Assembly (NCBI GenBank): GCA_028291265.1
Contig: JAQGIK010000076.1
Coordinates: forward strand, 1 to 64,000
Length of the DNA stretch: 64,000 bases
Direction: 5' to 3'
From: Caulobacter sp.
GTDB lineage: Bacteria; Pseudomonadota; Alphaproteobacteria; Caulobacterales; Caulobacteraceae
The notes below the pieces were generated by a model. It did no database searches and had not been told where the DNA came from. It saw only the letters and a program-made list of their open reading frames with translations. Below are positions 14,355-57,292 of the stretch, piece after piece. Position numbers and translations under genes: made by a program. Each line of letters begins with the position of its first letter. Position 1 is the stretch's first letter.

Positions 14355-14431
<77 letters not shown>

Positions 14432-14480
14432 GGGATTTCAACGACTTAGGGTCACGCCACTGAGCCCGCCACCTGGGCAT

Positions 14481-19295: not shown

Positions 19296-19404
19296 AGGTG
19301 AGGGCTCATGATCTGAAGGTGGACCGGTGAGGGCCAGGAGCGGACATTGGGACCCTCGCCGCAACCGGCCCCTTGGCTGGTAGCGCCTTGGCAGCGGTGA
19401 GTTC

Positions 19405-20097: not shown

Positions 20098-20411
20098 CGC
20101 GCTCCTCCCCATGCCCTTTTCTCATCGTGATGTTCGCACGCGACTGCATGACCCTCCAGCGGGCCGCCATGCGCCACGAACGGACATTGACCCATCTCCT
20201 GGACCCATCTCCTGAAAGCAGACGCTCACTAGCCGGCGGGTGGCGAGACCCTGGCCTTGCGGACGTTCATTCAGGTTCGGCCGGGCCGCACGACCTCGCG
20301 TCTTCCTTCAAGAATGTCTCTCGCGTCCGCTCCAGGAGGTTGAACACGACCTCGGACGGCTTGGTTGGCGAACCGGATGTTGTATCCGTACGCGGCCCAA
20401 GCTCGCGGCGA
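20098..20411. other. 314-bp stretch without a supported gene
   Basis: It contains a direct 12-bp doublet, ACCCATCTCCTG at about 20198-20221, inside a degenerate GGACATTGACCC...GAAAGCAGACG sequence. Similar sequence is seen in other noncoding parts of the island. It probably separates the nuclease-like gene from the queE 3' end. Confidence 0.4.
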
Positions 20412-21074
20412 CTACCTTACGCCGATGTACTTGTGTGTCTGGACACTGAGCCGCCACTTGGGGTGCGTGAGGCAATAGTCGATGGCCGCCGCCGTATTGG
20501 CCGCGTGGTCCGGGCCGTCCATGGGCTGCAGCCAGAACCGTTCGAAATCGAGGTGCTCAAACCGGTCCGGCATGGCCTTGGCCTGGGGGAAGACCAGCTT
20601 TAGCTCCTGACCAGCGGTCTGGACCACGGCGGCGTCCGCCTTAGGGCTGATGCAGATCCAATCGACACCATCAGGCGCGGCCAGGGTTCCGTTGGACTCG
20701 ATGGCAATCTCGAAGCTGCGGGCGTGCAGGGCGTCGATCAAGGCTTCGTCGATCTGCAGCAACGGCTCGCCGCCAGTGCAGACGACCAAGCGCGGGTCCC
20801 CTTCCCGCCCCCGCCACATCGAGACGACATGCTGGGCCAGGGCCTCGCCGCTCGCAAACTTGCCGCCGCCGTCGCCGTCGGTCCCCACGAAGTCGGTGTC
20901 GCAGAAGGTGCAAACGGCCGCGGCACGGTCCCGCTGCAACCCGTTCCACAGATTGCAGCCGGCGAAGCGCAAGAAGACAGCCGGACGCCCGGCCTGACCG
21001 CCCTCGCCCTGGACGGTCAGAAACACCTCCTTGGCGGAGTAGGTTCTGACAGATTTGGGTCTGGCGCCGGACAA
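20412..21074 (-). CDS. queE: 7-carboxy-7-deazaguanine synthase
   Basis: The 220-residue radical SAM enzyme converts carboxytetrahydropterin to 7-carboxy-7-deazaguanine, the second-last step to preQ0. EVFLTVQGEG opens the protein. The cluster cysteines are C40, C55 and C58 (C-x14-C-x2-C), the expanded spacing known from Burkholderia-type QueE. VVCTGGEPLLQ and ESNGTL follow. It is divergent from the dpdC-B-A operon and completes the island's preQ0 supply with queD and queC. Confidence 0.95.
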   Translation of the reverse strand: MSGARPKSVRTYSAKEVFLTVQGEGGQAGRPAVFLRFAGCNLWNGLQRDRAAAVCTFCDTDFVGTDGDGGGKFASGEALAQHVVSMWRGREGDPRLVVCTGGEPLLQIDEALIDALHARSFEIAIESNGTLAAPDGVDWICISPKADAAVVQTAGQELKLVFPQAKAMPDRFEHLDFERFWLQPMDGPDHAANTAAAIDYCLTHPKWRLSVQTHKYIGVR

Positions 21075-21257
21075 AGCACCCCTCCACGAATCGATGCGTC
21101 AGACCCTAATCTCAAACGAGGTCGTTGCCGCGAGTCAGCGAAAACTTATCGACAGTTTTTGATAGCAATCGCCAACTTCACGTGAGAAACTGCGGTATGT
21201 CACGAGTTCATTTGCGCAAAAACTGTAATCCTCTGTCACCTCTAAAGGTCGCCAACC
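21075..21257. promoter_or_regulatory. Divergent intergenic region queE / dpdC
   Basis: This 183-bp region is richer in A+T than its surroundings (for example GAAAACTTATCGACAGTTTT near 21140) and lies between two outward-facing operons. It therefore must hold the promoters of queE and of dpdC-B-A-B-queD-queC. No operator could be assigned by eye. Confidence 0.5.
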
Positions 21258-22166
21258 GTGCCTCTTGTCATTGTCATGTGCAGCAAGCGCAAACGCGCTC
21301 CTGCTGACCCGACACTTTCGGCGAAGGACCTTGATAGCGGAAATGCGCAGCAAGTCGCCGCAGTCTGGAGCGAGCGCCTTCAGCAGGCAGCCACGACGAC
21401 CAAGGCCGGAAATCTTTACGCTGGCCGCGGTTTCGCGGAAGCAAGTCGGGCCGCTGCACATCTCGACGCGCGGCTCAGCATCGTGTCTGCAGGGCTAGGG
21501 CTCGTTGATGCGACGACGGAAGTCCCTTCCTATAGTCTGACGACCTCCGCTCAAGACCCAGACAACGTCCTCAAAAAGACCGGTGGCGCTTCGGCTGAGT
21601 GGTGGAACGCCGTTCAGGCCGCAACCCCCTACGCCAGCAAGGCGGCGACCGACGAGACCGGCTTGATCCTGGCGGGTCTGTCCTCAGGTTACCTTGCGAT
21701 GGTCGCGAACGAGTGGTCTCGATGGCCGACGGAGCGGCTGGGCCGTTTGCGTCTGTTCAGTAAGGAACGTCCTTCGGGCTCGGCGGCCGCTCTACTTCCC
21801 GCATGGATGCCCTACGATGACAGGCTCGACGCAGCCGGCGCTGACTGCGCGGGGACTCAAGGTGACTTTGCGCAACGCGCGCTACGTCATTTCGCAATCA
21901 CTTTGGGCGGCTCTCAATCAACAACAGCCGACGCCGCGGCCGTCAGACGCGCGCTCAACGGCTTGTCCGCACGAACGAGGCCCGACCGGACCCGACTAAG
22001 CGACGACGCCGTCATCGATCTGATCCGTGAAAATTGGGACGTCATCGGCGGACGATCGGGGGCCATGCTTCGGCATCTGCGCAGGACCTTGGGCTTCGCT
22101 TGCGAACAGGGCCGGTTCAAGGGGTTGTTTCACGCAGCCGCTCAGCAGCGATCGAAGGCCGCTTGA
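21258..22166 (+). CDS. dpdC: DpdC candidate: YaaA/DUF328-like protein
   Basis: The 302-residue protein opens with PLVIVMCSKRK. It then has NLYAGRGFAEASR and LSIVSAGLGLVD followed by PSYSLT. This order (CSxxK, LYxGxxF, SAxxGL, P-Y) is that of the YaaA/DUF328/DUF6884 superfamily. Known dpd systems use DpdC to convert preQ0 in DNA to the amido form (ADG), and I recall that it belongs to this fold. The C-terminal 100 residues are basic. The GTG start has AAAGG upstream. The gene overlaps the first dpdB by 1 bp (TGATG). The assignment rests on fold and neighbourhood. Confidence 0.6.
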   Translation: MPLVIVMCSKRKRAPADPTLSAKDLDSGNAQQVAAVWSERLQQAATTTKAGNLYAGRGFAEASRAAAHLDARLSIVSAGLGLVDATTEVPSYSLTTSAQDPDNVLKKTGGASAEWWNAVQAATPYASKAATDETGLILAGLSSGYLAMVANEWSRWPTERLGRLRLFSKERPSGSAAALLPAWMPYDDRLDAAGADCAGTQGDFAQRALRHFAITLGGSQSTTADAAAVRRALNGLSARTRPDRTRLSDDAVIDLIRENWDVIGGRSGAMLRHLRRTLGFACEQGRFKGLFHAAAQQRSKAA

Positions 22167-23266
22167 TGACGCTCAGCAAAGTCACCGTCCGCGCGCTTCG
22201 AACCCGCCAAGGCGCTGAGACGGAAGTCTACGCCTTCTTCCTGCCTGGCCACCAAATCGCGCAGATCGCGGACATCAGCCGACTGCGCCGAGGCGAAGGC
22301 AATCTGGAAGGTTTTCAGCGTCGAGAGATCAAGGCTCACGTCGCCGAGATCGCGAATTTTCTGAGCCAGGGACCGGTTCTGTTTCCGAACGCGATCATCC
22401 TGGCTCTTTCCCCGCAGGTTAAGTTCAAATCGGCGCGCGGTCCCTCTGGGGAAGACGAACTGGTTCGTAGCGGGGAACTGACGATACCGGTCCGCCCCGA
22501 AGGCCAGCGCGCGGCTTGGATCGTCGACGGGCAGCAGCGCTCTCTCGCCCTGGCCAAGTCCGAGCAAACAAGCCAACCGGTGCCAATTGTCGCCTTCGTC
22601 TCCGACGACGTGACGTCTCAGCGCGAGCAGTTCATCCTGGTCAACAAGGCCAAGCCCTTGCCGCCGCGCCTGATCGACGAATTGCTGCCGGTGATGTCGG
22701 TCACCCTGCCTCGATCACTCAAGGCGCGCCAGTTGCCGAGCGCGCTTTGCACGCTGCTCAATGAGGACCCCGCGTCTCCCTTCTACGGTCTCATCAAGCG
22801 CGAGTCTCAGCAGGGCAACACCGACGCTGTCATCACCGACACCGCACTGACCAATGCGATCACTGCCAATCTGCGCGCCGGCGGCGCACTGGGCGCCTAT
22901 GACGCCGAGACGGGACGGGAGGCGGCCTATCAGGCGCTCGTGACCTATTGGAGCGCGGTGCGCGAGGCCTTCCCTGACGCCTGGAGCAAGTCGTCGGCGA
23001 CAAGTCGCCTGATGCACTCGGCCGGCATCCGCTCCATGAGCGCCCTGATGGATCCCGTCTGGACCAGGGCGGACGCCGCGGCCGATCCCGCCTCGGAGGT
23101 CCGGGCGGCGATGAACCGCATCGCTCCACATTGTCGTTGGAGCGACGGGGTCTGGGAGGAACTCAACTGGGCTTGGGACGATGTGCAGGCCACAACACGT
23201 CACATCAAAGGTTTGAGCGAACATCTTCTCAAACTGGATCGCGAACTGTCCAGGCCTGCACGATGA
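22166..23266 (+). CDS. dpdB: DpdB, first copy (DGQHR-domain protein)
   Basis: The 366-residue protein has GFQRREIKAHVAEIANFL, LFPNAIILAL, WIVDGQQRSLAL (DGQQR at 121-125), FILVNKAKPLPPRLIDELLP and SRLMHSAGI. These are hallmarks of the DGQHR/DndB-like family, which in dpd systems works with DpdA to place preQ0 in DNA. The start overlaps the dpdC stop (TGATG), and its stop overlaps the dpdA ATG (ATGA). Confidence 0.85.
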   Translation: MTLSKVTVRALRTRQGAETEVYAFFLPGHQIAQIADISRLRRGEGNLEGFQRREIKAHVAEIANFLSQGPVLFPNAIILALSPQVKFKSARGPSGEDELVRSGELTIPVRPEGQRAAWIVDGQQRSLALAKSEQTSQPVPIVAFVSDDVTSQREQFILVNKAKPLPPRLIDELLPVMSVTLPRSLKARQLPSALCTLLNEDPASPFYGLIKRESQQGNTDAVITDTALTNAITANLRAGGALGAYDAETGREAAYQALVTYWSAVREAFPDAWSKSSATSRLMHSAGIRSMSALMDPVWTRADAAADPASEVRAAMNRIAPHCRWSDGVWEELNWAWDDVQATTRHIKGLSEHLLKLDRELSRPAR

Positions 23267-24549
23267 AGTTTATCTTTGCTGACAGCCTGGACTTCGTTGA
23301 CCCCGGCTACGACTTCACCAACGACCGCAATGCGCCGGGCCGCAAGCCTTATTGGGATGACGCCTATCCCCACGAGATCCTCGGCTACGCGCCCTACCAC
23401 GGCATGCTCGTGTCTCGCGGGATCGTAGGCGACGGCCCCGTCAAGGGGAAATACACCGAAGCCCAGGCCATGCGGTTTCGACGCGTCGGCGCACGCGAGT
23501 TCCTGCGCCTGAACACGCCCGCCTTCGCCAATCTAGCGCTGTTCGGCGACTGCGGCGCCTTCACCTACGTCGCCGAGGAAGTCCCGCCCTACACCCCGGC
23601 GGATACGGCTGAGTTTTACGACGATTGCGGCTTCACCCATGGCTGCTCGGTCGACCACATCATCTTCGACTTCGACGAAACCGTCGTCGGGATGGAGGGA
23701 GGCAGCGCAGAAGCCCATCGCCGCTTCGACATCACGCTCGAGAACGCCGCGGCCTTCCGCGAGGAAACACGTCAGGCCCACCACTTTACCCCGATGGGTG
23801 TCATCCAGGGCTGGTCTCCCGGCAGCATGGCGGACGCCGCCCGGCGCTTGGTCGCCATGGGCTACGACTACCTCGCCATCGGGGGCATGGTCCCGCTGAA
23901 GGCCGAGCAGATCAAACGCTGCCTGTCGGCCATCCGTGACGCCGTGCCGGCCTCGACCCGGCTCCACATCCTCGGCTTCGCCAAGGCCAATGAGATCCAT
24001 GAGTTCGCCCCGTTCAACGTGACGAGCATCGACACGACCTCGCCCCTGCTGCGGGCGTTCAAGGACGACAAGCAGAACTACTGGCTCGGCGACGGCCCCA
24101 ACCTGACCTACTACACCGCGATCCGGGTTCCCCAGGCGATCGAGAACCCGCGCCTCCAGCGGCACGTGCGCCAAGGCGACTTCAAGGCCGAGCGCCTCAC
24201 TCAACTGGAGACCCGCGCCCTGGCCGCGCTGCGCGCCTACGATCACGACGATCAGGATCTGGAAGGCGTGCTGGAGACCGTGCTCGAATACAACGCGATC
24301 CTCGCCACCGGCCAAGCCTATGAGCACGTCCGCAACAATCCCACGATGGACAAGCTTCGCGGCCGCTACCGGGCGACGCTCGCTGACAAGCCGTGGCGCA
24401 AATGCGGTTGCCGCATCTGCCGGGACGTGGGCATCGAAGTCATGATCTTTCGCGCCAGCAACCGCAACAAGCGTCGGGGCATCCACAATCTCGCGGCCTT
24501 CAAGACCGTGGTGGACGCCCTCTCCGTCAATCAAGTCGAGGCTGCATGA
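23263..24549 (+). CDS. dpdA: DpdA, TGT-like DNA-guanine transglycosylase
   Basis: The 428-residue protein replaces G in DNA by preQ0. Asp96 in FGDCGAF aligns with the TGT Asp of DSGGFQ, and DFDE at 136-139 is a second acidic cluster. FTPMGVIQGWSPGSMADAAR and YDYLAIGGMVP match the TIM-barrel strands. The zinc ligands are C381, C383, C386 and H408 (C-x-C-x2-C-x21-H). Unlike tRNA TGTs it starts with KFIFADSLDFVDPGYDF, which is typical of DpdA. It sits between two dpdB genes with ATGA overlaps on both sides. Confidence 0.93.
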   Translation: MKFIFADSLDFVDPGYDFTNDRNAPGRKPYWDDAYPHEILGYAPYHGMLVSRGIVGDGPVKGKYTEAQAMRFRRVGAREFLRLNTPAFANLALFGDCGAFTYVAEEVPPYTPADTAEFYDDCGFTHGCSVDHIIFDFDETVVGMEGGSAEAHRRFDITLENAAAFREETRQAHHFTPMGVIQGWSPGSMADAARRLVAMGYDYLAIGGMVPLKAEQIKRCLSAIRDAVPASTRLHILGFAKANEIHEFAPFNVTSIDTTSPLLRAFKDDKQNYWLGDGPNLTYYTAIRVPQAIENPRLQRHVRQGDFKAERLTQLETRALAALRAYDHDDQDLEGVLETVLEYNAILATGQAYEHVRNNPTMDKLRGRYRATLADKPWRKCGCRICRDVGIEVMIFRASNRNKRRGIHNLAAFKTVVDALSVNQVEAA

Positions 24550-25628
24550 CCATCCTGACCTTCCTGGCCGCGCGGGCGCGCCAGAGCGCCGAACACGACG
24601 TGTTGACCTTCGCCGCGACCGCTGGCCAGGTGCTGCAGTTCGCCGAGATCGACCGGGTCGGCCGCGACGAGGCTGGCGCCCTCAGCGGGTTCCAGCGCCC
24701 CCAGATCGCCGGCCATATCCGGGAGATTCGGGACTATCTGGAAACCGAAACCGCCATCCTGCCGAACGCGATCGTGGTGGCCTTCATCGAGGGCGTGACG
24801 CTCGAGGACCTCGGCGACGGCATCTGCCGCGTGACGATCGACCTGACGCACGGACCCAAGGGTCTGGTGGTCGACGGCCAGCAGCGGCTGACCGCGCTCA
24901 GTCTGTCCTCGCGGCAGGACTTCCAGCTGTTCGTGTCCTTGATGATCTGCCGCGACGAGGCCGAACTCCGCCGGCAGTTCGTGCTCGTCAACAACACACG
25001 CCCCCTGCCCAAGTCGCTGATCTACGAACTTCTCCCCTCGGTGGACGGTCTGCCGGACCGGATGCAGAGCCGCGCGCTCGCCGCAGACCTCACGGCCCGG
25101 CTGAACTTCAACCAGGCCTCCTCGCTGAAGGGGCAGATCTACCAGCACACCAACCCCTCCGGCGTCATCAAGGACACCGCGATCCAGAAGGTGCTGATGA
25201 ACTCCCTGAGCGACGGTGTGATGCGTCTGCTCGTCACTGAGACCAACGGGTCGAAGAAATGCTTCGACCTGATCAGCGAGTTCTTCAAGGCCGTGCAGAC
25301 CATCTTCCCCGAGGACTGGTGGGGACACAAACCCGCCTCGTCGCGCCTCGTCCACGGTGCCGGCATCCAGGCGATGGGCTTTGTCATGGAGACCCTGGCC
25401 ACCCTCGACAACGCACGGACCTGGAGCGAGTTCGCCAACGGTCTGGCAGCGCTTGAGGGCCGCACTGCCTGGACCTCGGGGTCATGGGACTTCGGCAACG
25501 GCGACGTTCGCCACTGGAGGGCGGTTAATGTCACCAGCAGCGACGTGGCACTCCTGACAAAGCACGTCGAGGGCATCGTCCGTCGTGACCTGCGCGCCCG
25601 CCGCGCCAGCGCCGTCGCCGCCGCCTAA
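24546..25628 (+). CDS. dpdB: DpdB paralogue, second copy (DGQHR-domain protein)
   Basis: The 360-residue protein shares with the first copy GFQR, PNAI, VVDGQQRLTALS (DGQQR at 110-114), FVLVNNTRPLPKSLIYELLP and SRLVHGAGI. The rest has diverged strongly, so this is an old paralogue and not a recent duplicate. Its start overlaps the dpdA stop (ATGA). A heteromeric DpdB assembly or separate roles for the two copies are possible. Confidence 0.82.
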   Translation: MTILTFLAARARQSAEHDVLTFAATAGQVLQFAEIDRVGRDEAGALSGFQRPQIAGHIREIRDYLETETAILPNAIVVAFIEGVTLEDLGDGICRVTIDLTHGPKGLVVDGQQRLTALSLSSRQDFQLFVSLMICRDEAELRRQFVLVNNTRPLPKSLIYELLPSVDGLPDRMQSRALAADLTARLNFNQASSLKGQIYQHTNPSGVIKDTAIQKVLMNSLSDGVMRLLVTETNGSKKCFDLISEFFKAVQTIFPEDWWGHKPASSRLVHGAGIQAMGFVMETLATLDNARTWSEFANGLAALEGRTAWTSGSWDFGNGDVRHWRAVNVTSSDVALLTKHVEGIVRRDLRARRASAVAAA

Positions 25629-25682
25629 ACGCAGATGAACCTGCTCCAGCACCCCGACTCATGATTTTCTGGGCGTGACGCC

Positions 25683-26054
25683 ATGTATGAACTGACCAAA
25701 CAATTCCGGTTCGACGCCGCCCATACCCTCGAGCGTGAGATCGAGGCCGAGGGCAGCCGTCGCATCCACGGTCATTCCTACAGGGCCGAGGTCACGCTGC
25801 GCGGACGGCCGGATCCTCTAACCGGGATGATCATCGACACCGGTCTGCTGGCTCGCAAGCTCGAGCAGGCGCGCGACGCCCTGGATCACCGGTTCCTCGA
25901 CGAGATCAATGAACTGGGTCCGGGCACGCTCGAAAACCTCTGCGCCTACATCTGGCGTAAGCTCGAGGACGACGTCGCCAACCTGTACAGCGTGGCTGTC
26001 CTGCGAGATTCAACAGAAGAACGCGTCACTTATTTCGGCGAAGCCGCCGCGTGA
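25683..26054 (+). CDS. queD: 6-carboxytetrahydropterin synthase homologue with Cys-to-Ser change
   Basis: The 123-residue protein has the QueD zinc triad H14 (FDAAH), H29 and H31 (IHGHSY), plus the downstream LDHRFLDE. QueD makes carboxytetrahydropterin from dihydroneopterin triphosphate. The catalytic Cys that stands four residues before HGH in QueD (Cys27 in E. coli) is Ser25 here. The protein is otherwise normal in length, so this is a real substitution and not a truncation. It starts 54 bp after the second dpdB and overlaps queC (GTGA). Confidence 0.9.
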
Positions 26055-26794
26055 GCGGCGCGCTCGTCCTCTTCTCCGGCGGCCAGGATTCGGCGACCTG
26101 CCTCGCCTGGGCGCTGGACCGGTTCGACCACGTCGAGACGGTCGGCTTCGACTATGGCCAGCGTCACCGCGTGGAACTGGACGCGCGGACCGTCGTCCTC
26201 GATCGCATTCGATCCATGAACGACTGGGGGGATCGCCTGGGCGAGGATCGCATCCTCGATCTCGGCGTGCTCGGCAAGATCAGCGATACGGCTCTCACCA
26301 GCGACATGGCTCTCGCCACGGCCGCTTCCGGACTGCCGAACACCTGCGTCCCGGGTCGAAACCTCCTCTTCCTGACCTTCGCCGCGACGATCGCCTATCG
26401 ACGTGGACTCAAGCACATCGTCACCGGCGTCTGTGAGACGGACTACTCCGGATACCCCGACTGCCGTGACGACACGATCAAGGCGCTCCAGGTCGCTCTC
26501 AACCTCGGAATGAAGACCCGACTGGTCCTCGAGACGCCGCTCATGTGGGTCGACAAGGCCCAGACCTGGGCGCTGGCTGAAGATCTCGGCGGGCATGGTC
26601 TAACTGAACTGATCCGCACCGAAACTCTGACCTGCTATCAGGGCGACACCGAAACCCGCAATGAGTGGGGCCGTGGCTGCGGAGAATGTCCGGCGTGCGA
26701 CCTGCGGCGTACGGGCTTCGAACGCTGGAAACAGCTCGGGAAAGCCGCCTCCCAGGCCTCACTTTCCGGTTGCAATCCAATACCATCCGAGTGA
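26051..26794 (+). CDS. queC: 7-cyano-7-deazaguanine (preQ0) synthase
   Basis: The 247-residue ATP-dependent enzyme converts carboxydeazaguanine and ammonia to preQ0, the base DpdA inserts. [18 protein letters not shown] holds the PP-loop SGGQDS (9-14). [11 protein letters not shown] follows. The zinc site is C195 plus C210-x2-C213-x2-C216. The GTG start overlaps the queD stop by 4 bp. No queF is present, as expected when preQ0 itself is the substrate. Confidence 0.95.
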
Positions 26795-26919
26795 GCGTGC
26801 CCCCGTGGATTGGGGGAATTTATGAGTCCGGATCAACCGGGCCGGCCGAAGACGATCAGGCTGGCTAACGCGACCATAAGCCCAGTTCGGTCACCGATTC
26901 CGCGGCAGGGCCAAACCCG

Positions 26920-29900
26920 GTGTTTGTGATTGCAGTGTCAGGCGACGCACGATCGTGGGGTGTCGGCAAGCTACTCAACCAAAACGGGGCGGACTGCACC
27001 GTTGAGTACTTCGACACGCCCATGGCTGAACCCATCCTCCGCGAATGTCTCGCGACGGATCTGCGCTCGGTATCGCTCCCCGCCCAGACCAGGGTCTTTG
27101 TCTACAACTCCATGATCTCCGCCTGGGAGATTGGTCGCATCCTCGACGACCATGGCGACACTCAACTGATCAAGTTTCCCAAAGGGGCGACTCGTCACCT
27201 CAGGGTCTCGGAGGTCTTCGCGCGCTGGGATCGTCCCATCAGCGATCCTACGGGATTTCTCGCGGCCGAGATCACCGAGACGCCACGCTTCGCAACGGGT
27301 CGGGCGCCGTTCGTGCGGTCACTGCTCAAGCAACGCGCGGCCGCGCTGGGCATGTCGGCCCTGCCCTCTTCAGCAATCGAACTGGAGGCTCATCAGGTCG
27401 AGGTGGTGCGGAAGGTTCTGCAGGACCCGATACAGCGCTATCTGCTCGCGGATGAAGTCGGGCTCGGCAAGACGATCGAAGCCGGGGTCCTCATTCGCCA
27501 GTGTGTCCTGGATGACAGCAATCACGCGAGAGTCCTGATTCTCGTGCCTGAAGGTCTCGTCTCACAGTGGCGTACGGAACTTAGCACCAAGTTCTTTCTG
27601 GGCGGCCGACTGGATGAGACCGTCTTCGTCGAACCCTTCTCAGCCACCAGTCGCATCCGGGCCTTGGCTCCTTCGGCGACCATGCTGGTCGTAGACGAGG
27701 CCCACCATATAGCCTTTGACCAGGATGGCGCCGGCTCCGGCCTTTACGAGGACCTTGTCGCCGCCGCTCCGTCGATTGACCGCATCCTGCTGCTGTCGGC
27801 CACACCCGCTTTGCACAATGAGCGCGGCTTCCTGCGGATGCTTCACCTGCTCGATCCGACGGGTTACCCCCTCGATGGCGAGACCGAGTTCCGCAAGCGG
27901 GTCTCGGAACGGCAGGCGTTGGCCGAGATCGTTGCATCCCTGACGCCGGATAACGCCCTCTATCTGGACGACTCTCTCGACGAACTCGCGATCATGTTCC
28001 CGGACGACCTGCGTTTACTGGACGAGGCTGGCCGCCTGAGGCAAATCATTGTTGGAATGCCGCCGGAAGACGATCCCGATCTCGTCTCGGCCGTTGCGGT
28101 CGTCCGCGACCATCTGAGCGAAGTCTACAGACTTCATCGCCGGATTTTGCGGCACCGCCGACGTAACGTTGTGGGCCTGACCCCCGACAGATCCGGGGCG
28201 GAGGTCGTCTCCTACCGCTCGCCCGCCACGCTTGCGGCCGCGACTGCCGCTGACGAGTGGCGCTTCGCCGAACTGACCGATGGAAATCAGGCGGGGCCAA
28301 CCGACGCGAGCCTGGCGTGCTCGGCCTTCCTCATGGAACGACGGGCCAGCTATGCGGTGTCCGCACTGGCCAGACCCGCTTCGCCTGCATCCGTCGCGGC
28401 GCCGGAACCGTTTTTGACCGCGCTGCGGACGACCGAGGAGCCTGAGCGTTCAGGGGATCGGATCGACGCCCTGGCGGACGCAGTCCATTCCCGCCTCGCG
28501 CCGCGCGTTCAGTTCATCGTCTTTTGCTCCGACCCGGTCACGGCGGATGAGATCGCCAGGCGTCTTACCTCACGCCTCGGGCAGATCGTTGATCGACACG
28601 ACCCGGCAGGCACAGCCTGGCAAGCCTTTGGAGACAATACGTCGCGAGCAGTTCTGGTTTGTGATTATCGGGCGGAGGAAGGTCTAAACCTGCAAGGCGG
28701 CGAAAAGGTCATCGTCCACTATGATCTGCCCTGGAACCCCAATAGAGTTGAGCAGCGCCTTGGACGGGCGGATCGATACGGATCCGGGCAGTCCGTCAGA
28801 TCACTGGTCATCTGCTGCGAGGATGATCCGATTGAAGTCGCATGGACACGCTACCTGAGCGACGCTCTGCTGGTGTTCGATCGGTCGATCGCAAGCCTCC
28901 AGTACTTCCTGGAAGAGACATCCAAGGCGCTGCCGGTGCTTCTGCTCACCGAGGGCGCCGAAGGCATCATCGACTTGATGGTGAGGGATCAGGGGGACGA
29001 CGGCCTGATCGCCACCGAGATCAAAAACATCAATCAGCAGGATGCTCTCGACGCATTGGGCGACCCGCCCACCGAGACGATGGATGTCTTGTCGGATCTC
29101 GACGATGAGTGGCGTGAAATCGAGGCCGATCTGGGTGGCTGGATTCAGACCACCTTGATGTTCGGGCGATCCAACGAGCCGCCCGGGGTGGCCGGTCAGA
29201 CTCCCGGTGCGCCGTTCCGGTATCGGTACATGACGGGCGCACAACACACTCTGCTTCCTCTTGAGGAGTTCCATCAACGGTGTGAAGCGGCCCTCGATCT
29301 GGACCTGAAAGTGACCCGGTCGCGCGACCTCTGGACGGTCCCGTATACTTGCCGGCGCCCGACAGCCTTGTCCCGTCAAGGGCGGGCTGTGCAAGCGCGC
29401 CTGCTGCGTTACGGCGACCCGCTTCTGACAGGCCTTCGCGAGCTTGCCCAACGGGACGAGCGCGGTCGATCGACTGCGTTCTGGCGACATCTGCCGGCAA
29501 GTCGGGCGGCGCAAACGGACGTATATTTCCGGTTCGACTTCATCATCGAAGCCGAAGTGGGTCCCGCGTTCCAGATTCTGGACCTTGCGGGATGCCTGAC
29601 GCCCTCGGCCGTGTCGTCGCTCAGTCGGCGTGGAGATATGGCGCTCGCTCCCGGCTTCCACACAGTCTGGCTCGACAGCGACCGCCGGACGGTCACCGAC
29701 CCGACGCTTCTCGAAATGCTGGAGGAGCCCTACCGGGTCGAGACCAGCGACCAGGGAGAGCGCGACTTTAATCTGAACCCGAAACGCTGGCAGGCGCTCA
29801 GGGCGCTGCGCATACCTCAACTGGATCAGTGGGGCGATTTGTGCGGCGAAGCCCGGTACGCCGCGGAAGCCCATCTCCGTGGACTCCAGGCTCTGAACGA

Positions 29901-36729: not shown

Positions 36730-37451
36730 GCTCACACCTGCCATCCCGGGTCTCGGCGCTCCGCGAAAAACTTGGGCGCCTGGAGGCCATCTCATCCAAG
36801 GCCGCGGAAGCGAGCGAACTGTCCGGCCTCCGAACGGACCTCACCGATCCTGTCCAGAAGCTGACTGCCCTGACCAACAGACAATCGCTCTTCAACGAAC
36901 ACGGCGTGAAGACAACCGCGCCCGAGAGCCTGGAAAAACTTCGCCAGAAAGCGCACGCGGTGCGGGAGCGGTTCCGCGCCGTTCGAACGTCGGCGACGCT
37001 CAAAAAAGGGCAGTCCTGGAAAGTCCTCCTCGCCGAAACCTCGACGGCGACCAGCGATGTAGAAAAGGCGCTGACGACGTCCTGGCGCGACTACCGGTCG
37101 ACCCTGTTCGCTGGTGACCCACCCACCAAGGTCGCCGGCACACTCGCGGGCACGAAGGAAAACCTGCAAGCGCTGGAAGCCTACAAGGTCACCTATGAAG
37201 CCTTCAGCCGACTATTCCTGCTCGTCCCCTCGGACCCCTCGGTCGTACAGAAGGCCAAAAGTCTCGCTGCAGAGCTGGTGCTGATCGGAAAGCGCTTCGA
37301 CTTCGACGTCATCCCCGAAGTTCGGGCCTTCCTTGCCGCTGTACAGGCCGGGGGCGCGCCTCTGGGTCTCCTGACCCCGAAAGTCATGGATTGGCTGAAA
37401 GAAGGGGGCGGAATGGACAGTTACCGCGTCCGCGCCTCGGACGGCCAATGA
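36726..37451 (+). CDS. dpdI: DpdI, helical accessory protein
   Basis: The 241-residue protein is all helical with coiled-coil-like heptads (REKLGRLEAISSKAAEASEL, SLEKLRQKAHAVRERF). It has no catalytic motif, signal peptide or TM segment. It overlaps both neighbours by 4 bp. The name comes from its position between the ATPase and the DEVH helicase genes. A scaffold role for DpdH or DpdJ is plausible. Confidence 0.62.
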   Translation: MSSHLPSRVSALREKLGRLEAISSKAAEASELSGLRTDLTDPVQKLTALTNRQSLFNEHGVKTTAPESLEKLRQKAHAVRERFRAVRTSATLKKGQSWKVLLAETSTATSDVEKALTTSWRDYRSTLFAGDPPTKVAGTLAGTKENLQALEAYKVTYEAFSRLFLLVPSDPSVVQKAKSLAAELVLIGKRFDFDVIPEVRAFLAAVQAGGAPLGLLTPKVMDWLKEGGGMDSYRVRASDGQ

Positions 37452-40400
37452 CCGCAAACGACACTCTCCTCTTCGCCGTCCTGGACCAGATCGAACAGCA
37501 GGAAGCCCGTCTGTTGTCGTGGGGCCTGGTCGACTCCTTCATTCCCCGCACGGAGTTGGAAACTATCATCGGCGAGGAGTTGGACGGCCTCGCAGGCGCT
37601 CCCGGTCTGGGGCTGATGAACGTCGCTTCGGTGCTCAGCGCACTGATCCAGCAAGCGCTCATTTTCGATGTCGGTGATGATGTCGGAGAACGCTTCCGGT
37701 CACGGATGTCGGAAGGCGTCCGGCTGATGTTCCGCCTTCGCCAACTGTTCCCCAAACATGACGGGCCGATCGGTTGGCAGGGCGCCCCTACCCTCGTCGC
37801 TGATTTTCGCTTCCTCTGGCGACGTCGCCGATATCCGAAGCGGCTCATCGAACCCGCCGCGGGCATCGCGGAGATCGGGACAGCCACAGCCGACGTCGAC
37901 ACCCGGGAAGCCATTTCCGAGCTCGTCAGCAGCTACGGTCCGGAATTCAAGCTGGCCAGATTCCAGATCAACGCCGCCAAACGGATACTGGGGGGATTTG
38001 ATCAGCCTTGGTCTCAGGCGACCCTGGTCAGCGCCGGGACCGGCAGCGGAAAAACGCTCGCCTTCTATCTGCCGGCCCTCGCTCGGGTGGCTTTCCACAT
38101 CGAACATGACGAACCCGGCGCGCGCTGGGTGAAGGTTCTGGCACTCTACCCCAGGAACGAGCTTCTGAAGGATCAATTCGCGGAAGTTTACAGCCAGGCA
38201 CGGGCCTTGGACGGCACTCTCGTCGCCAGGGGGCGGCGCAAGATCCTGATCGGAACACTCTTCGGTCCGACGCCGCATTCGAACAAGTCCGTAGCCACCG
38301 GCCACAGCAAATGGCCTTCGCACAGCGACGGTCACATCTGCGAATACATCCGCTGTCCAACCGACAACTGCCACGGCGACATGGTCTGGCGGCACGCGGA
38401 TCGCGAGAATAACATCGAGAGCCTGCGGTGCGATCTCTGCGGCCATCACATCGGCAGCGACGAGATCGTTCTGACGCGAAAGAGGCTGGAGACTGAAAGC
38501 CCCGACATCCTGTTTACAACGACAGAGATGCTCAATCAGCGGCTTGCTGACTCGCAACTCCATCATTTGTTCGGATTGGGGGCTCGGGCGCAGAGAGCCG
38601 TCGAGATGATGCTCCTCGACGAGGTGCACACCTACTCCGGACGCTCGGGAGCCCAAGTCGCCTACCTCCTGCGCCGCTGGCGGAAGATGTTGCGCAAGCC
38701 TGTCACCTTTGTCGGGTTGTCCGCGACCCTGAGAGATGGTCCCCGCTTTTTCGCACGTCTGGCCGGCCTCAACGAACAGGCCGCCGTCGAGATAGCACCG
38801 GCGGCCAGCGACATGATCGAAGAGGGCGCCGAGTATATGCTCGCGCTTAGAGGTGACCCGGTGTCACGGACCGCCTTGCTCTCGACGACCATCCAGTCGG
38901 CCATGTTGGCGTCCCGCATGCTGGACTCTCCGCGCCATCAAAAGAGCGACAGGGTCTTCGGCGAACGCGTCTTCCTGTTCACTGACGACCTCGATGTGAC
39001 CAACCGGATGTATTTCGCCATGCTCGACGCCGAGGGCAGAAACGCATTCGGGCGCCACGATATGAATCGGCACCCCAGAGGCGGTCTCTCGATCCTGCGC
39101 CGTCCGATGCCGAACCTGCAGCGCAAGCTGCACGGACAGGATTGGCAAGTTCCAATGGAGATTGGACACGAACTGAACGGTGCTGACCGAAAGGCCGTCG
39201 GACGCGTCATGTCTCTGGATCCCGGCGTCGGAAAGAACCTGGACATCGTTGTTGCCACAGCCACCCTTGAAGTGGGCTTCAACGATCCGCTCGTCGGCGC
39301 GGTCATCCAGCACAAGGCTCCTCGCGACGTCGCACAATTCCTCCAGCGGAAGGGCCGCGCCGGCCGATCTCGCCGAATGCGGCCCTGGACCATCGTTGTT
39401 CTGTCAGACTATGGGCGCGATCGGATCGCCTATCAGGCCTACGATCAACTCTTCGACCCCGAACTGTCCGTTCGAAGTCTTCCTGTCGGCAATCGATATG
39501 TCCGACGCATCCAGTCCGTCTTCGCCACCATGGATTATCTGAGTGAGCGGCTGGAGCAGGCGCCCGCCGGCAGCGTCTGGCGCGATCTCGCAGAGCCTTC
39601 GGAGTGGCAGAACAATCGGGTCCGGCAGGCGAAGCTGGCCCGCGCGATCACCCGAATTCTGTCGGAGCAGGCGGAGCGCGAGCGATACGCGGCCTACCTC
39701 GGCAAGGCGCTTCAGCTTGAGGAGGAGGAGATCTCGCTGCTGCTGTGGGACCAACCTCGACCCCTGTTGTCCGAGGTGTTGCCAACTGCACTGAGGCGGC
39801 TGGAAACACACTGGCGCCAGCAAGGCCCCCTGCCGGAAGCAATCGTAAAGAACTCCCCTCTTCCAGAGTTTGCGCCGGCCAATCTTTTCAGCGACCTGAA
39901 TCTTCCGGAAGTTTCGATCGCTCTGCCGCAGGTCCATGGCGAGGACGTCGATCCCCGGGTCATGCCGATCCTTCAGGCGATGAGGGATTTTGCGCCTGGC
40001 CGAGTCTCCCGGCGGTACGCGCTGCAGCACGGCGGCGAGCGTCATTGGATTTGCCCGCCGCTGGATCAAAACCTCTTCCAGGTCGTCGACGTCGACTCAA
40101 TCATGGACGCCGACCTCGCCGGACATTGGGCGATGTCGTCAGGCTCAGGCGTGTTCCGCCTGCCGGTGTTTCGCCCGATCGAAATCACGACCCAACAGAC
40201 GCCCGCGACCGTGCTCGACACGTCGCAGGCGCGACTCAGTTGGCGTACCCAGATCGTCGCTCGTTCCGAAGGCCTGCGGCTCGATTTGCCGCGTAACGAT
40301 CCATGGTCCGGCCTCGTGAGGGAGGTCAGGTTCTTCACCCATCAGAACCAGGCGCCGGTCGTGGTCCGCCGCTTCGCGATCTCGAGTGATGCGGACATTC

Positions 40401-42004
40401 GCTACCGCAACGGGACTTCCGTCAGGAAGACCTTCACCTTCGCCTGGGGCGAGACGCAACAGGCCGCCATAGGATTCGACGTCGTCGCTGATGCCTTCTG
40501 TGTCCAAGTCAACTTTCCGGATGCGCTTTGGTCCTCGCTCGGCGGTGAGGAAAGTGGCCTGTACCGGGCGATCAGAACGGCTCGCTTCCACCATCAGGCG
40601 CGTCAAGGTCCCTATTTGGCGAGCGTCGACAATGTCTTCGCGCGGGAATGGCTTGCACACCTCCTGATTTCAGCGCTCTCCAACGAGGCCGTGCTGAAGG
40701 GAATTTCGCTGTCCGAGGCCGCGGACAATCTGGCTGCTGATCGGGCCGACCTATCTCTGGAAGCGACACTGACACTTCTCTTCCAGTCCCCGACGGTCGA
40801 TGACGCGGACGCCCAAAGCAACACCCAGGACAAGCTGCGGGCGGACCTGGAGGCCTATCTGCATGACCCTTCAGTGGTCAGCGATCTTCATAGCCTCGGC
40901 GCAATTCTCTGGACCCCGGTCGACGCCGCCTGGGAGCCTTGGTTGCGCGAACGTTTCACTGCGACGATCGCCGCGGCGGCCATCAGCGCAATCTCCAACC
41001 TCTGCCCGGAGATCGACTCAGATGGTCTGGTTGTCGACCTCGACGCGGGGCCACGTGAAGCCGACGACGTCTTTGTCAGCGTGGGCGGAAACACCGGTCA
41101 GGTGTGGATCAGCGAATTGTCGCCCGGCGGCAACGGGCTGATCGAGGAAGTCCTGAAGCAGTACGCCGAGGATCCGCGGCGGTTCTTCAGCCAGATGACG
41201 GCGGCCCTGCGCGATAACGACTTCTTGCTCAGCGATTTCCAGCTCACCCGCCTTCTGGGAGAAGTTGTCGCTGACCCCGCGGGAGACCTTGCGCTGGCGA
41301 CGGCGCATTACCGCGCGGGATACGGCGCTGCGGAATCCTATGCGCGCTTCGCAGAGTTGCGCGGCGCGTTGGCAAGCGAGGGATACGTCACCTTCCATGC
41401 CTTCACCGTCGCGCTCGCCAATCGCATCCTTCGGCCGGGCTCGAGTCCGGTCAGTGACGCCTTCCTCCTCAACGCCCTGACCAGGTGGTCCTCGGAAGAA
41501 GCGCGTCTGGGCGTCGAGCTCGACGCCCGGATAATCGCCTACAGGCTGGCCAATATGCCCGAGATCGATGCCGCCTTGATGGACGCCGGCATTGAAACGC
41601 CCGCATCGGGCGCCGAGCAGTGGCGTTTCGGCGTGATCTACAGTCTGCTCTGGCCCAGGGGCGGCCATATTCGCCGATCGGGACTTGAGAACTATTCCCC
41701 CTTCGGTGACCTCGCATCGGCTGAGCCATTGCTGGTGAAGCGACACCTCAGCGACGGGCTAGACGCGATCGACATCAGGGAAGACGACTGGCAGCCGCGT
41801 TGCCTTGCGCGCCTCGCCGAACTGGGCGCAGTGACGCTTGTGTGTCCGATGACCGAGGCCCCGCGCCTCGCCGACGCCTTCAGTTTCCTGGCCACGAACC
41901 CCGTCCCTTCCGATTACCTCTCTGTCTACGCACGGGTGCAAGCTGTGCGCCGAGTAGAAGATGTTTTCGCGGTGGAGATCGACATCGCGGAGGCGGTCCA
42001 ATGA
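37448..42004 (+). CDS. dpdJ: DpdJ, large DEVH helicase with zinc-binding insertion
   Basis: The 1518-residue protein has a SF2 core with SAGTGSGKTLAFYLPAL (about 197), LLDEVHTYSGRSGAQ (DEVH near 390) and FLQRKGRAGRSRRMRPW (motif VI near 635). Between motifs I and II four cysteines lie in two pairs (CPTDNC and CDLC near 305-335), a probable zinc knuckle. LHR/YprA-like helicases share this general layout. About 850 residues follow the helicase core without a motif I know. It overlaps dpdI and dpdK by 4 bp each. Confidence 0.82.
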   Translation: MTANDTLLFAVLDQIEQQEARLLSWGLVDSFIPRTELETIIGEELDGLAGAPGLGLMNVASVLSALIQQALIFDVGDDVGERFRSRMSEGVRLMFRLRQLFPKHDGPIGWQGAPTLVADFRFLWRRRRYPKRLIEPAAGIAEIGTATADVDTREAISELVSSYGPEFKLARFQINAAKRILGGFDQPWSQATLVSAGTGSGKTLAFYLPALARVAFHIEHDEPGARWVKVLALYPRNELLKDQFAEVYSQARALDGTLVARGRRKILIGTLFGPTPHSNKSVATGHSKWPSHSDGHICEYIRCPTDNCHGDMVWRHADRENNIESLRCDLCGHHIGSDEIVLTRKRLETESPDILFTTTEMLNQRLADSQLHHLFGLGARAQRAVEMMLLDEVHTYSGRSGAQVAYLLRRWRKMLRKPVTFVGLSATLRDGPRFFARLAGLNEQAAVEIAPAASDMIEEGAEYMLALRGDPVSRTALLSTTIQSAMLASRMLDSPRHQKSDRVFGERVFLFTDDLDVTNRMYFAMLDAEGRNAFGRHDMNRHPRGGLSILRRPMPNLQRKLHGQDWQVPMEIGHELNGADRKAVGRVMSLDPGVGKNLDIVVATATLEVGFNDPLVGAVIQHKAPRDVAQFLQRKGRAGRSRRMRPWTIVVLSDYGRDRIAYQAYDQLFDPELSVRSLPVGNRYVRRIQSVFATMDYLSERLEQAPAGSVWRDLAEPSEWQNNRVRQAKLARAITRILSEQAERERYAAYLGKALQLEEEEISLLLWDQPRPLLSEVLPTALRRLETHWRQQGPLPEAIVKNSPLPEFAPANLFSDLNLPEVSIALPQVHGEDVDPRVMPILQAMRDFAPGRVSRRYALQHGGERHWICPPLDQNLFQVVDVDSIMDADLAGHWAMSSGSGVFRLPVFRPIEITTQQTPATVLDTSQARLSWRTQIVARSEGLRLDLPRNDPWSGLVREVRFFTHQNQAPVVVRRFAISSDADIRYRNGTSVRKTFTFAWGETQQAAIGFDVVADAFCVQVNFPDALWSSLGGEESGLYRAIRTARFHHQARQGPYLASVDNVFAREWLAHLLISALSNEAVLKGISLSEAADNLAADRADLSLEATLTLLFQSPTVDDADAQSNTQDKLRADLEAYLHDPSVVSDLHSLGAILWTPVDAAWEPWLRERFTATIAAAAISAISNLCPEIDSDGLVVDLDAGPREADDVFVSVGGNTGQVWISELSPGGNGLIEEVLKQYAEDPRRFFSQMTAALRDNDFLLSDFQLTRLLGEVVADPAGDLALATAHYRAGYGAAESYARFAELRGALASEGYVTFHAFTVALANRILRPGSSPVSDAFLLNALTRWSSEEARLGVELDARIIAYRLANMPEIDAALMDAGIETPASGAEQWRFGVIYSLLWPRGGHIRRSGLENYSPFGDLASAEPLLVKRHLSDGLDAIDIREDDWQPRCLARLAELGAVTLVCPMTEAPRLADAFSFLATNPVPSDYLSVYARVQAVRRVEDVFAVEIDIAEAVQ

Positions 42005-42540
42005 CGTTTGAAAGCCGACGGATCTTCAAGAGCAAGGCGACCAGTCAGAACCTCGTACGTGAACTGCTCCAGATGATGCTGCTTGGTGAAATCGTTTCAC
42101 CCGGCGGCCAGCGGGCCTGGCTTGTCAGCCCCTGGATCAGCAACGTCGTTCTGTTCGATAATCGTGCGAGCGGCTTCTCATCGATCAACCCCGACTGGGG
42201 CAGCCGAGAGATCCGGCTGATTGAGGTCGCGCTGCACCTCATAGCCCGTGGCACCAAATTGGGAATCGCCACCAACTTCGACGATCACAACACCCCCTTC
42301 CTCGACGCCATCCAGACCGGCGCCGAAGAGGCCGGCGTCGCCGACAAGCTCCTGGTGGTTCAGAGAGCCAATCTGCATGTGAAGGGCATATTGCTGAAGC
42401 GCGGCCTCCTGACGGGATCGATGAACCTGACGTACCGCGGTCTGGAGCTGAACGACGAGACCGTTGTCTACGACACAGCGACACGCGTGATCGCCCAAGC
42501 GAGGGTGAACTTCGAGTCCTACGCAAAGGCTGACGCATGA
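42001..42540 (+). CDS. dpdK: DpdK, phospholipase D-like protein
   Basis: The 179-residue protein carries one HKD half-site: NLHVKGILLKRGLLTGSMNL (His126, Lys128, then GSMN). A single-motif PLD protein usually works as a dimer, as in nuclease-type PLD enzymes, which makes it a candidate DNA-cleaving component. AWLVSPWISNVVLFDNR at the N-terminus is typical of the fold. It overlaps dpdJ and dpdD by 4 bp. Confidence 0.8.
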   Translation: MTFESRRIFKSKATSQNLVRELLQMMLLGEIVSPGGQRAWLVSPWISNVVLFDNRASGFSSINPDWGSREIRLIEVALHLIARGTKLGIATNFDDHNTPFLDAIQTGAEEAGVADKLLVVQRANLHVKGILLKRGLLTGSMNLTYRGLELNDETVVYDTATRVIAQARVNFESYAKADA

Positions 42541-44831
42541 TCAGTCTTCTGCCGGCATCCGAACTGGCGTGGGTGAAGTCCTACTTCAGTCCGCCCAACG
42601 ATCTTCACTGGCAAGCGCTCGAAGATGGCTCGGCAAGCACGGAACAAATAGACGCGGTCGCGCCGTGGCTGAGCCGATTGGCATCGCCACTCTCGGACAC
42701 TCCGATGGTCCTGCCCTTCTATCGGGGAAATTCGATCACCGGTTGGTACGCGACGGCGGTGACGGATGACGGCGAACAAGGCTTGAGATCCATGCTTCGC
42801 GCCTGGTTTGGATCGTCCTATCTGACCGTTTTCGACAATGCCGCCCTGACCAACCCAAGCGCCACCCCGCTAAGAGAGCGCTTCGGTGGAGAGGTCATCT
42901 CGTTCACGGGGCCGGAGATCAACCAGATCACTGCCCGTCTGGCGCTCCTGGCCAGGCTCGAAGCCCAGCGGCCGCCTCTCCGCCGGACAGAGCCCCGCCC
43001 CGTTGGCCGGATCCGCGCTGATCTAGAACACGCATTGGCTGCTCGCGACGAAACGCACGCTCTCTCGCTGATCGCTGAACTGCGCGCCACCGGGCGATTG
43101 AATGAGGAGAATCTTCAGTTCCTCGACATCCGGCTCAAGGCCGGCCTCGGCAAATGGCAGGAGATTGCGCTCGACCATTGGACGATCCGAAACCTTTCTG
43201 ACCTTCCGCTGCCGCCTCAGACCCTGTCCGACCTGATTGAAGCCCTCTATCGCGTCCACCTCGACGGGCTGGACACGGCCGAGCCCGATGCGGTTCTCCA
43301 AGCCTTCAACGAGCACATCTACGCGCCGTACCCACGGCTCTTCGCATCGCGCCATGGCGTTCGATCACCGCGTGTCGTTAAAGCCTTCATCCTCGCCGAG
43401 GCGCTGCAGGCCACACCGAGCACCGTCGTTCTGGGGCAGCTGAACGCTCTGTTGCCGACCAGCGAGATCGGCTGGGCGGAGCCGTTTACCGAGGCTGGGA
43501 CGCAACCCGCAGACAGCACCAAGGACCCACTCCCCGAAGACCGGGACGCAGTTGAACCCGTCGAGCCTGCCTCCTCGGTCAAAGAACCTATCGACGAAGC
43601 AGAGGCTGCCTACGAGGATGGTCAGATCGACCGCGCCTTCGAGCTCGACCTTTATCAGCCGCTCAGTCGAAAATCATTGATGAGGCTCCTGGCGTGCGCC
43701 CAGTTCATCGGAACAGATGATGCGCGCACCAGATTGCTGGCTGCCTTCGACAGTCAGACTGACACACATGGAAACCTGACTGAATCGCAGATTCAACGAG
43801 TCGAACTGCTCAGGCCAAAGTCTGCGCCGCAGTCCGATCCAGACGCGACAGCTAACGCATCGGGGTGGCTTGATTGGGCCCGCCGGCTAGCGGCAGCGCA
43901 AGGCATCGAAAACGCCGTGTCAGATGCGCTGGATAACCGCTCCACCTGGGAGACGGCCACGCTGAGGGGCAGCGCTGCCCAGTGCGGTGAGTTCGCCGAT
44001 CTGATCGGCAATCTGAGCGGACCCGCCGCAGACATCGCCCGCCAATCGCTGCCTTTGCTCGTGTCGGCATTCTTTCCGGACGACGAACCGCCAACTGTCG
44101 CCCTGAAGCCTGTCGCCAACGTCGTCCTGCTGCTCATCGCCATGGATACGACGGTGAGCCGGGCGGACCTCGAAACTCTGAGCGCCGTCGTTGCCGTCCT
44201 GATCGACCTCGGCCTGAGTTCGCCAGAGTATCTGACGATGATCGCCGACCTCGAAGACATTCAGTCACGCGCGGCGTCATTGACGAACCTGGCCTGGTCG
44301 CTGGACATGTGCGAGTTGCTTGCGATCTCACCGACGCCGTCTGAGGACGCACGCTCCGCCAGGCTCCGGTTCTTCCTCGCTGTGGTGGGCCAGAGCCAGG
44401 CGTTCGCACACCGCCTTGCCGCGGCTGACTTCCTCCCCATCGAGTTCTTGGCGCGTGACTTCGGCGTCGACCCTCGGTCAATCTTGGCCTTGCGGCCTGA
44501 ACCGCAGCAGGATGCCGACGCTGAAAGCGTCGATCTGGCCGGTAAGCTGGTGGGCATCTACACGCTCAGCCAGGCCGCAGGCGCGAGAGCCAAGGCCGTT
44601 CTCGAAGCCCTGTTCCCCGGATGCCGCATCGAGGTGAACTCTGACAAAGTGAGCACTTCAAGCCTGACCACGCTCGCCCGCACGTCCGACATTTTTGTCT
44701 TCGCCTGGCGGAGTAGTAGTCATCAGGCCTTCTATTGCGTCAAGGACGCCTTGAACGGACGAGACCCCACCTATGCCGCAGGCAAAGGCACGGCGAGCAT
44801 CATCAACGCCGTCCGCGAAGCAGCAGCCTAG
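42537..44831 (+). CDS. dpdD: DpdD candidate
   Basis: The 764-residue soluble protein has an acidic low-complexity linker (EDRDAVEPVEPASSVKEPID) near 345. Its well-conserved-looking C-terminal end reads DIFVFAWRSSSHQAFYCVKD. No catalytic motif is visible. Length and membership of the operon fit DpdD of described systems, and no other gene here can take that role. It is the last gene of the overlapping run, 66-80 bp before a small unknown gene. Confidence 0.62.
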   Translation: MISLLPASELAWVKSYFSPPNDLHWQALEDGSASTEQIDAVAPWLSRLASPLSDTPMVLPFYRGNSITGWYATAVTDDGEQGLRSMLRAWFGSSYLTVFDNAALTNPSATPLRERFGGEVISFTGPEINQITARLALLARLEAQRPPLRRTEPRPVGRIRADLEHALAARDETHALSLIAELRATGRLNEENLQFLDIRLKAGLGKWQEIALDHWTIRNLSDLPLPPQTLSDLIEALYRVHLDGLDTAEPDAVLQAFNEHIYAPYPRLFASRHGVRSPRVVKAFILAEALQATPSTVVLGQLNALLPTSEIGWAEPFTEAGTQPADSTKDPLPEDRDAVEPVEPASSVKEPIDEAEAAYEDGQIDRAFELDLYQPLSRKSLMRLLACAQFIGTDDARTRLLAAFDSQTDTHGNLTESQIQRVELLRPKSAPQSDPDATANASGWLDWARRLAAAQGIENAVSDALDNRSTWETATLRGSAAQCGEFADLIGNLSGPAADIARQSLPLLVSAFFPDDEPPTVALKPVANVVLLLIAMDTTVSRADLETLSAVVAVLIDLGLSSPEYLTMIADLEDIQSRAASLTNLAWSLDMCELLAISPTPSEDARSARLRFFLAVVGQSQAFAHRLAAADFLPIEFLARDFGVDPRSILALRPEPQQDADAESVDLAGKLVGIYTLSQAAGARAKAVLEALFPGCRIEVNSDKVSTSSLTTLARTSDIFVFAWRSSSHQAFYCVKDALNGRDPTYAAGKGTASIINAVREAAA

Positions 44832-47067: not shown

Positions 47068-47102
47068 GCCGGCTCGGCGGGAAGCCCTACAGGAACTAAA
47101 TC

Positions 47103-50591: not shown

Positions 50592-50610
50592 GTGCGTCAG
50601 GAGAGCCAGG

Positions 50611-53422: not shown

Positions 53423-53441
53423 GCTCAACTCCTCTTGATTG

Positions 53442-53474
53442 CCAGTCACCACCCAGTCACCACCCAGTCACCAC
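53442..53474 (+). repeat. Three tandem CCAGTCACCAC units (candidate integrase arm sites)
   Basis: Three perfect 11-bp copies are placed end to end, 115 bp inside attR and directly upstream of the integrase gene. The GTCACCAC core is shared with the two motifs inside attL at 14481 and 14492. Confidence 0.65.
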
Positions 53475-53637: not shown

Positions 53638-53654
53638 AGGCCCCTTCTGAACAT

Positions 53655-57272: not shown

Positions 57273-57292
57273 AAGCGAAATCTCACCTACGG

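Follow-up and report, generated by a model that had tools for sequence, protein, structure and literature searches.

A complete standard-type Dpd modification and restriction gene set on a putative tRNA-integrated element of Caulobacter sp.

The stretch of DNA analysed here, called the window below, comprises 64,000 nt of Caulobacter sp. (contig JAQGIK010000076.1, positions 1–64,000), and holds at 20412–44831 a 24.4 kb set of genes of the Dpd type, the DNA modification and restriction systems based on 7-deazaguanines. The set consists of 15 open frames, with queE on the reverse strand, followed on the forward strand by dpdC, dpdB1, dpdA, dpdB2, queD, queC and the run dpdE-F-G-H-I-J-K-D (the labels B1 and B2 for the two dpdB copies are our own). 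A preliminary description of this DNA had named these genes as a complete and intact system within a tRNA-integrated island, and had set a search against the Dpd family models as a check. In this search 12 of the 15 proteins are at or above the curated cut-offs of NCBIfam equivalog or subfamily models, and the proteins D and E to K do belong to Dpd families, with seven of the eight restriction proteins DpdD to DpdK above their NCBIfam cut-off, DpdI being the exception. The other genes of the description were likewise found in their places by NCBIfam or Pfam matches, and its dpdC candidate by a PADLOC match.

The synthesis half starts with QueE, a 7-carboxy-7-deazaguanine synthase of the Cx14CxxC type (20412–21074, reverse strand, divergent from the dpd genes; TIGR04508, 344 bits, cut-off 240). 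On the forward strand it continues with DpdC (21258–22166), the first DpdB (22166–23266; NCBIfam DpdB, 422 bits, cut-off 300), the DNA-guanine transglycosylase DpdA (23263–24549; NCBIfam, 557 bits, cut-off 200), the second DpdB (24546–25628; 385 bits, same model), an island-type QueD (25683–26054; Pfam PTPS, 101 bits, cut-off 22.4) and the preQ0 (7-cyano-7-deazaguanine) synthase QueC (26051–26794; TIGR00364, 202 bits, cut-off 150). Residues 1–412 of DpdA align with the solved DpdA structure 7ui4 (E 6.7e-98), with which it shares the motifs GDCGAFT and SIDTTSPL and the CxCxxC...H zinc set (motifs at 23545, 24025, 24403 and 24478), and both DpdB copies contain DGQQR, so that the earlier picture of a transglycosylase-like DpdA with a zinc site and of two DGQQR proteins holds. 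The catalytic aspartate of DpdA is presumed to lie within these motifs. A sequence search of the PDB with DpdB2 returned nothing at E 0.001.

The effector half, also on the forward strand, encodes the SNF2-type helicase DpdE (26920–30144; 952 bits, cut-off 500), the RecQ-like helicase DpdF (30141–32720; 902 bits, cut-off 550), DpdG (32717–33619; 294 bits, cut-off 80), the P-loop ATPase DpdH (33619–36729; 765 bits, cut-off 450), DpdI (36726–37451; assigned by its place and by 46% identity to the copy in genome G217), DpdJ, a large helicase of superfamily 2 (SF2) (37448–42004; 1818 bits, cut-off 800), DpdK, a nuclease candidate of the phospholipase D (PLD) type (42001–42540; 194 bits, cut-off 100) and DpdD (42537–44831; 511 bits, cut-off 300), all scored with NCBIfam models. 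Walker A, DExH and motif VI-like sequences are kept in DpdE, DpdF and DpdJ, the P-loop in DpdH and HxK...GSxN in DpdK, which confirms the three SF2 helicases, the ATPase and the PLD protein previously described. For DpdD, the PDB search was not useful, yielding a pair of short alignments with designed repeat proteins, the better of which spans 50 residues at E 5.8e-6.

All 15 genes are open frames, and a reading of ten of them along their length for motifs and stop codons revealed no stop. The likely starts of DpdB1 (22166), DpdF (30141) and DpdH (33619) are small corrections to the gene starts. Adjacent genes overlap by a few bases within dpdC-dpdB2, queD-queC and dpdE-dpdD, as in operons, and gaps occur at dpdB2/queD and queC/dpdE. 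Chance similarity or mis-annotation of the locus genes is ruled out by the NCBIfam scores together with the PADLOC DpdC match, and a DISARM identity was rejected, since DpdE scores only 145.7 bits on the SNF2 helicase model DrmD, against a cut-off of 610.

QueC, QueD and QueE are also used for queuosine, and the locus could in principle be a group of ordinary tRNA modification genes beside unrelated helicases. The host, a member of the Caulobacteraceae and not an enterobacterium (genome of 4.35 Mb in 198 contigs, 94% complete), encodes elsewhere a normal tRNA-guanine transglycosylase (Tgt; 493 bits) and a second QueC, QueD and QueE, which sets the island apart from the tRNA pathway. Since, in addition, the transglycosylase of the island is DpdA and its helicases are Dpd equivalogs, we rejected the queuosine reading, which is hardly conceivable. 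The source of preQ0 is complete, with island QueE and QueC above their cut-offs, QueD identified by Pfam, and FolE encoded elsewhere in the host genome. Island QueD is 82–89% identical to the island QueD of relatives and just 35% to that of the host, while island QueE, at 69% identity, is nearer to the other host QueE than to the island QueE of others (58–63%). The divergent queE position was seen in the window, whereas in other alphaproteobacterial islands the gene comes after dpdB2; the stretches fetched from Brevundimonas yielded no queE.

We read these genes as a complete, standard Dpd modification and restriction system on an integrated element, and give this gene-level reading, derived from sequence comparison, a probability of about 93%. 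The functions of the parts are taken from excerpts of work on other Dpd systems (PMC12839542, PMC11888242, PMC12707154), from which the chemistry is transferred. The FolE of the host would provide the pterin precursor, from which QueD, QueE and QueC would make preQ0, and DpdA, with the ATP-using DpdB pair, would exchange guanine in DNA for preQ0, giving 2′-deoxy-preQ0 (dPreQ0). Its nitrile would then be converted to the amide by DpdC, yielding 2′-deoxy-7-amido-7-deazaguanosine (dADG), and DNA without the mark would be restricted by DpdD to DpdK, that is by the helicases E, F and J, the ATPase H and the PLD nuclease K, together with D, G and I. By this analogy the host DNA is expected to carry dPreQ0 or dADG, and unmarked DNA to be restricted; the division of labour within D to K and the joint action of the two DpdB are presumed.

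Several observations weigh against this reading. DpdI and QueD stay below their NCBIfam cut-offs (112.6 bits against 150, with E 2.8e-32, and 73.3 against 89.25, respectively), and no promoter-like site was detected in 20300–27000 in a scan for sigma-70-type sites; the promoter and terminator scan as a whole gave nothing above chance. The predicted fold of DpdC (mean predicted local distance difference test score of 79) resembles nothing in the PDB at E ≤ 0.001, the best structural match, YaaA (5caj), being not significant (E 0.06, template modelling score 0.25–0.28), and the family of DpdC is named differently in the excerpts of two papers, as DUF328 (PMC12839542) and as DUF6884 (PMC11888242).

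The nature of the final base would depend on DpdC, which scores 25.6 against the Pfam DUF6884 cut-off of 30 and has a best E of 0.66 in the PDB sequence search. It is the least conserved synthesis protein, with 33–65% identity to alphaproteobacterial copies and 19% when aligned with the Enterobacter copy, and it has no NCBIfam Dpd match. The end product could therefore be dPreQ0 itself, or another preQ0 derivative, made by a locus with a divergent DpdC. We regard this as unlikely, because the PADLOC DpdC model PDLC02815 covers residues 3–298, nearly end to end, at 290 bits, and most or all of the 10 alphaproteobacterial alignment rows share the blocks LYxGR, SAGLGL, PYDDRLD and ACEQxRF. The predicted role of DpdC remains the conversion of dPreQ0 to dADG.

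A locus that marks without defending, in which restriction does not work or D to K serve otherwise, for example in repair or silencing, is quite unlikely. A Sinorhizobium island does retain its synthesis genes although no effector turned up in the stretch fetched, but in the window E, F, H, J and K have preserved their catalytic motifs and the overlaps between neighbouring genes are kept, which suggests selection, and the literature records that the eight genes, moved to a naive host, lowered transformation.

The two DpdB proteins fall on two well-supported sides (100/99) of a tree of 27 rows, all of which contain DGQQR, and the branching patterns of the two sides are largely alike. The single Enterobacter DpdB, labelled B2 by us, sits on a long branch and its side is unsure. 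Both copies are present in all 12 other alphaproteobacterial islands of the tree, and likewise in L008, which is outside it. The most fitting reading of these sequences is an early duplication whose products were retained as a pair, and the two proteins may act in a joint DpdB1-DpdB2 complex. Additional copies of dpdB are already on record, with 801 reported by GATOR-GC (PMC11888242).

The evidence supports the location of the dpd genes on an element integrated at a tRNA gene, with boundaries that are not proved exactly. A tRNA-Arg (CCG) gene found by ARAGORN (14355–14431, forward strand) is the putative insertion site. A 51-nt attL-like direct repeat lies over its 3′ part (14384–14434, forward) and is 98% identical to an attR-like repeat at 53590–53640 (forward), which is adjoined by a tyrosine integrase gene with Pfam Arm-DNA-bind_3 and Phage_integrase domains (52136–53452, reverse). 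The repeats bound a unit of about 39 kb of lower G+C, with 0.61–0.65 across the dpd genes against 0.66–0.73 in the flanks. The left flank and the tRNA are kept in relatives of the genus (84.8–91.9% identical in the nearest three), but an empty site was not recovered, as the right flank was not found within 1.5 kb of the tRNA in the loci of 19 relatives, nor in the longer stretches of genomes G047 (40 kb), G182 (40 kb, in two pieces) and G263 (6 kb), the first two of which extend about 38 kb each beyond the tRNA. The tRNA-integrated island claimed earlier is thus upheld by the tRNA, the repeats and the integrase, but not by an empty site in relatives, and the insertion site looks variable.

Other features were observed around the dpd genes. 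In relatives the right flank (53641–64000) does not lie next to the tRNA, so that the dpd unit may be adjoined by another element or a rearrangement. Inside the repeat-bounded unit, genes for an ATP-binding cassette transporter (binding protein, permease and ATPase) and a radical S-adenosylmethionine protein lie at 48193–51555 (reverse), with G+C of about 0.57. Two low-G+C genes occupy 46114–48152, the first without a match in NCBIfam, Pfam or PADLOC and the second a DUF2971 gene with a weak match to the PADLOC candidate-defence model PDC-S31 (27.7 bits), and two small genes at 18588–20112 resemble restriction-endonuclease-type proteins, the second with weak matches to HSDR_N_2 (17.4 bits, cut-off 25) and Tin (15.9 bits).

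The enterobacterial system of Enterobacter cloacae pPOL9A (L027) resembles the window in having dpdC-like, dpdA, dpdB and dpdE-F-G-H-(I)-J-K-D genes, but has one DpdB instead of two, no queC, queD or queE in the fetched stretch, and the effector operon on the other strand, and its proteins found by BLAST are 26–43% identical. Closer in content is Agrobacterium vitis pUnnamed2 (L131), with the synthesis set in the order dpdC-dpdB-dpdA-dpdB-queE-queD-queC; the effector order from E to D is the same in the window, in A. vitis (where the I position is unnamed) and in G217. The A. vitis modules differ in that they face each other, with an HNH gene, insertion sequences and a third DGQHR gene lying between them, and a VUT-family gene is added. 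This third DGQHR-domain gene, between both Dpd modules of the plasmid, lies at 25946–26986 of L131.

Archaeal BRIGADE systems, as described in a 2025 preprint (PMC12458937), also combine predicted 7-deazaguanine genes with a helicase of the YprA family and a nuclease of the PLD or PD-(D/E)xK type, but are found exclusively in halophilic archaea and usually contain two YprA helicases, in contrast to the single DpdJ and standard bacterial set of the window; with one DpdJ only and a host in the Caulobacteraceae, the locus is not a BRIGADE. According to the same preprint, the DISARM/Dpd branch of YprA helicases has many uncharacterised Dpd-like classes.

We compared 17 dpdA loci with their surroundings, including the window. 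The standard effectors E-F-G-H-I-J-K-D are present in four (window, G217, Enterobacter and A. vitis) and another effector set in ten (L003, L004, L005, L007, L008, L028, L030, G130, G012 and Methylobacterium L133), which lies just partly within the stretch in L004, L007 and L008 and was judged from annotation and a tblastn match in L133. Three loci were not assigned, two because their contigs end (L006 and L009) and the third, L029, having no effector in its stretch. The other-set islands, of Brevundimonas, the Caulobacter sp. S6 plasmid, Skermanella and Methylobacterium, share with the window a synthesis module with two DpdB, DpdA of up to 89% identity and DpdF/G/H/I/J-like proteins, but they have a RecB-like nuclease and a DpdJ of about 2,100 residues with a helicase domain of the superfamily 1 (SF1) type, and DpdE, DpdK and DpdD were not found in their fetched stretches at E 1e-4.

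On the S6 plasmid all five shared families are below their NCBIfam cut-offs (DpdF 459.5 bits, cut-off 550; DpdG 51.8, 80; DpdH 302.9, 450; DpdI 30.4, 150; DpdJ 325.7, 800), and in its DpdJ homologue of 2,102 residues SF1-type AAA_11/AAA_12 helicase domains precede the DpdJ-like part. PADLOC models fit its DpdJ (2,230 bits), DpdF (633) and DpdH (731) closely, so that the other module is already partly catalogued as Dpd, and just the RecB-like part is not. This remaining protein, of 762 residues, matches the RecB-like model TIGR03491 weakly (38.2 bits, cut-off 97.45), and has no Pfam match at E 0.1 and no PADLOC match. All seven aligned copies keep D139 and K141 of IDxKATR, Q153, Y157 and cysteines 18, 244, 247 and 253, which we take to be the pattern of RecB/Cas4-type iron–sulphur nucleases. 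RecB-like proteins carrying a four-cysteine motif and a PD-(D/E)XK-like one take the place of DpdE/K/D at 38471–40759 of L028 and in L007, L030, L031, L033, L035 and L037.

DpdA is above its cut-off in 7 of 299 genomes of the family sample, including that of the window (9 of 299 at E ≤ 0.001). The standard module is present in two of these seven and the other one in five. The RecB-like protein also occurs in seven of the 299, namely the same five, G168 and, weakly, G221 (50.6 bits). The G168 copy (L103, 13226–14794), cut after residue 522, stands alone in 34 kb that were searched for further dpd genes, and is probably a remnant of a lost island. Among 72,556 plasmid records, the RecB-like protein is found in four, all within the 25 with a DpdA match, and DpdK in six, five of them within these 25 (the exception is Nostoc sp. 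C057), while no record holds both proteins. In a class-wide survey of 385 genomes, DpdA is above its cut-off only in the window's own genome; 77 match at E ≤ 0.001, and the other 76, all short and below the cut-off, are most likely ordinary Tgt. DpdK exceeds its cut-off in one of the 385 (24 at E ≤ 0.001), and the RecB-like alignment matched none, in a set without a positive control.

The synthesis and effector halves have different affinities. The synthesis proteins of the window are nearest to those of Brevundimonas (DpdA 87–89%, DpdB2 81–89%, QueD 87–89%), where the effectors are of the other type, whereas in G217 the standard effectors are 46–79% identical to those of the window, yet DpdA is only 55% and DpdC 33% identical. 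The DpdA of G217 groups with those of L028 and L038, carriers of the other effectors, and each of the two synthesis groups is therefore seen with either effector type. The grouping of window and G217 in a single DpdA clade is rejected (approximately unbiased test, p-AU 4.8e-7, a cost of 334 log-likelihood units), in a test for which the pair was picked after the identities were seen, and thus not blind, and on a tree with 2 of its 10 inner branches starred. The tree has 13 rows, omitting L006 and L009, whose contigs end before the effector genes, and not containing L131 to L133. The rejection of this clade suggests that the marking and attack halves have probably been exchanged as cassettes.

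Under a broader model, to which we give even odds, alphaproteobacterial Dpd would be assembled from two exchangeable cassettes. The one for marking would contain the DpdB1-DpdB2 pair as an obligate part, and the one for attack would be of either of two kinds, which exclude each other and read the same absence of the mark. The attack arms would be DpdE, the PLD nuclease DpdK and DpdD in the window, and the RecB-like four-cysteine nuclease with a DpdJ fused to a second helicase in the other islands, with DpdF-G-H-I-J as a shared reader-motor core whose nuclease arm is replaceable. The idea of a nuclease swap has a precedent in archaeal BRIGADE, in which a PD-(D/E)xK nuclease occasionally takes the place of the PLD one (PMC12458937). 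We found no account of this alphaproteobacterial effector module in the open-licence literature searched.

Taken as a single locus, the window adds one more host to a known system. The mechanism of restriction by Dpd is still described as open in PMC12707154, and the natural swap of a nuclease arm against a conserved helicase and ATPase core shows which parts likely read the mark and which cut. Since the window and its Brevundimonas relatives combine near-identical marking genes with different attackers, this division between reader and cutter becomes testable by cassette exchange.

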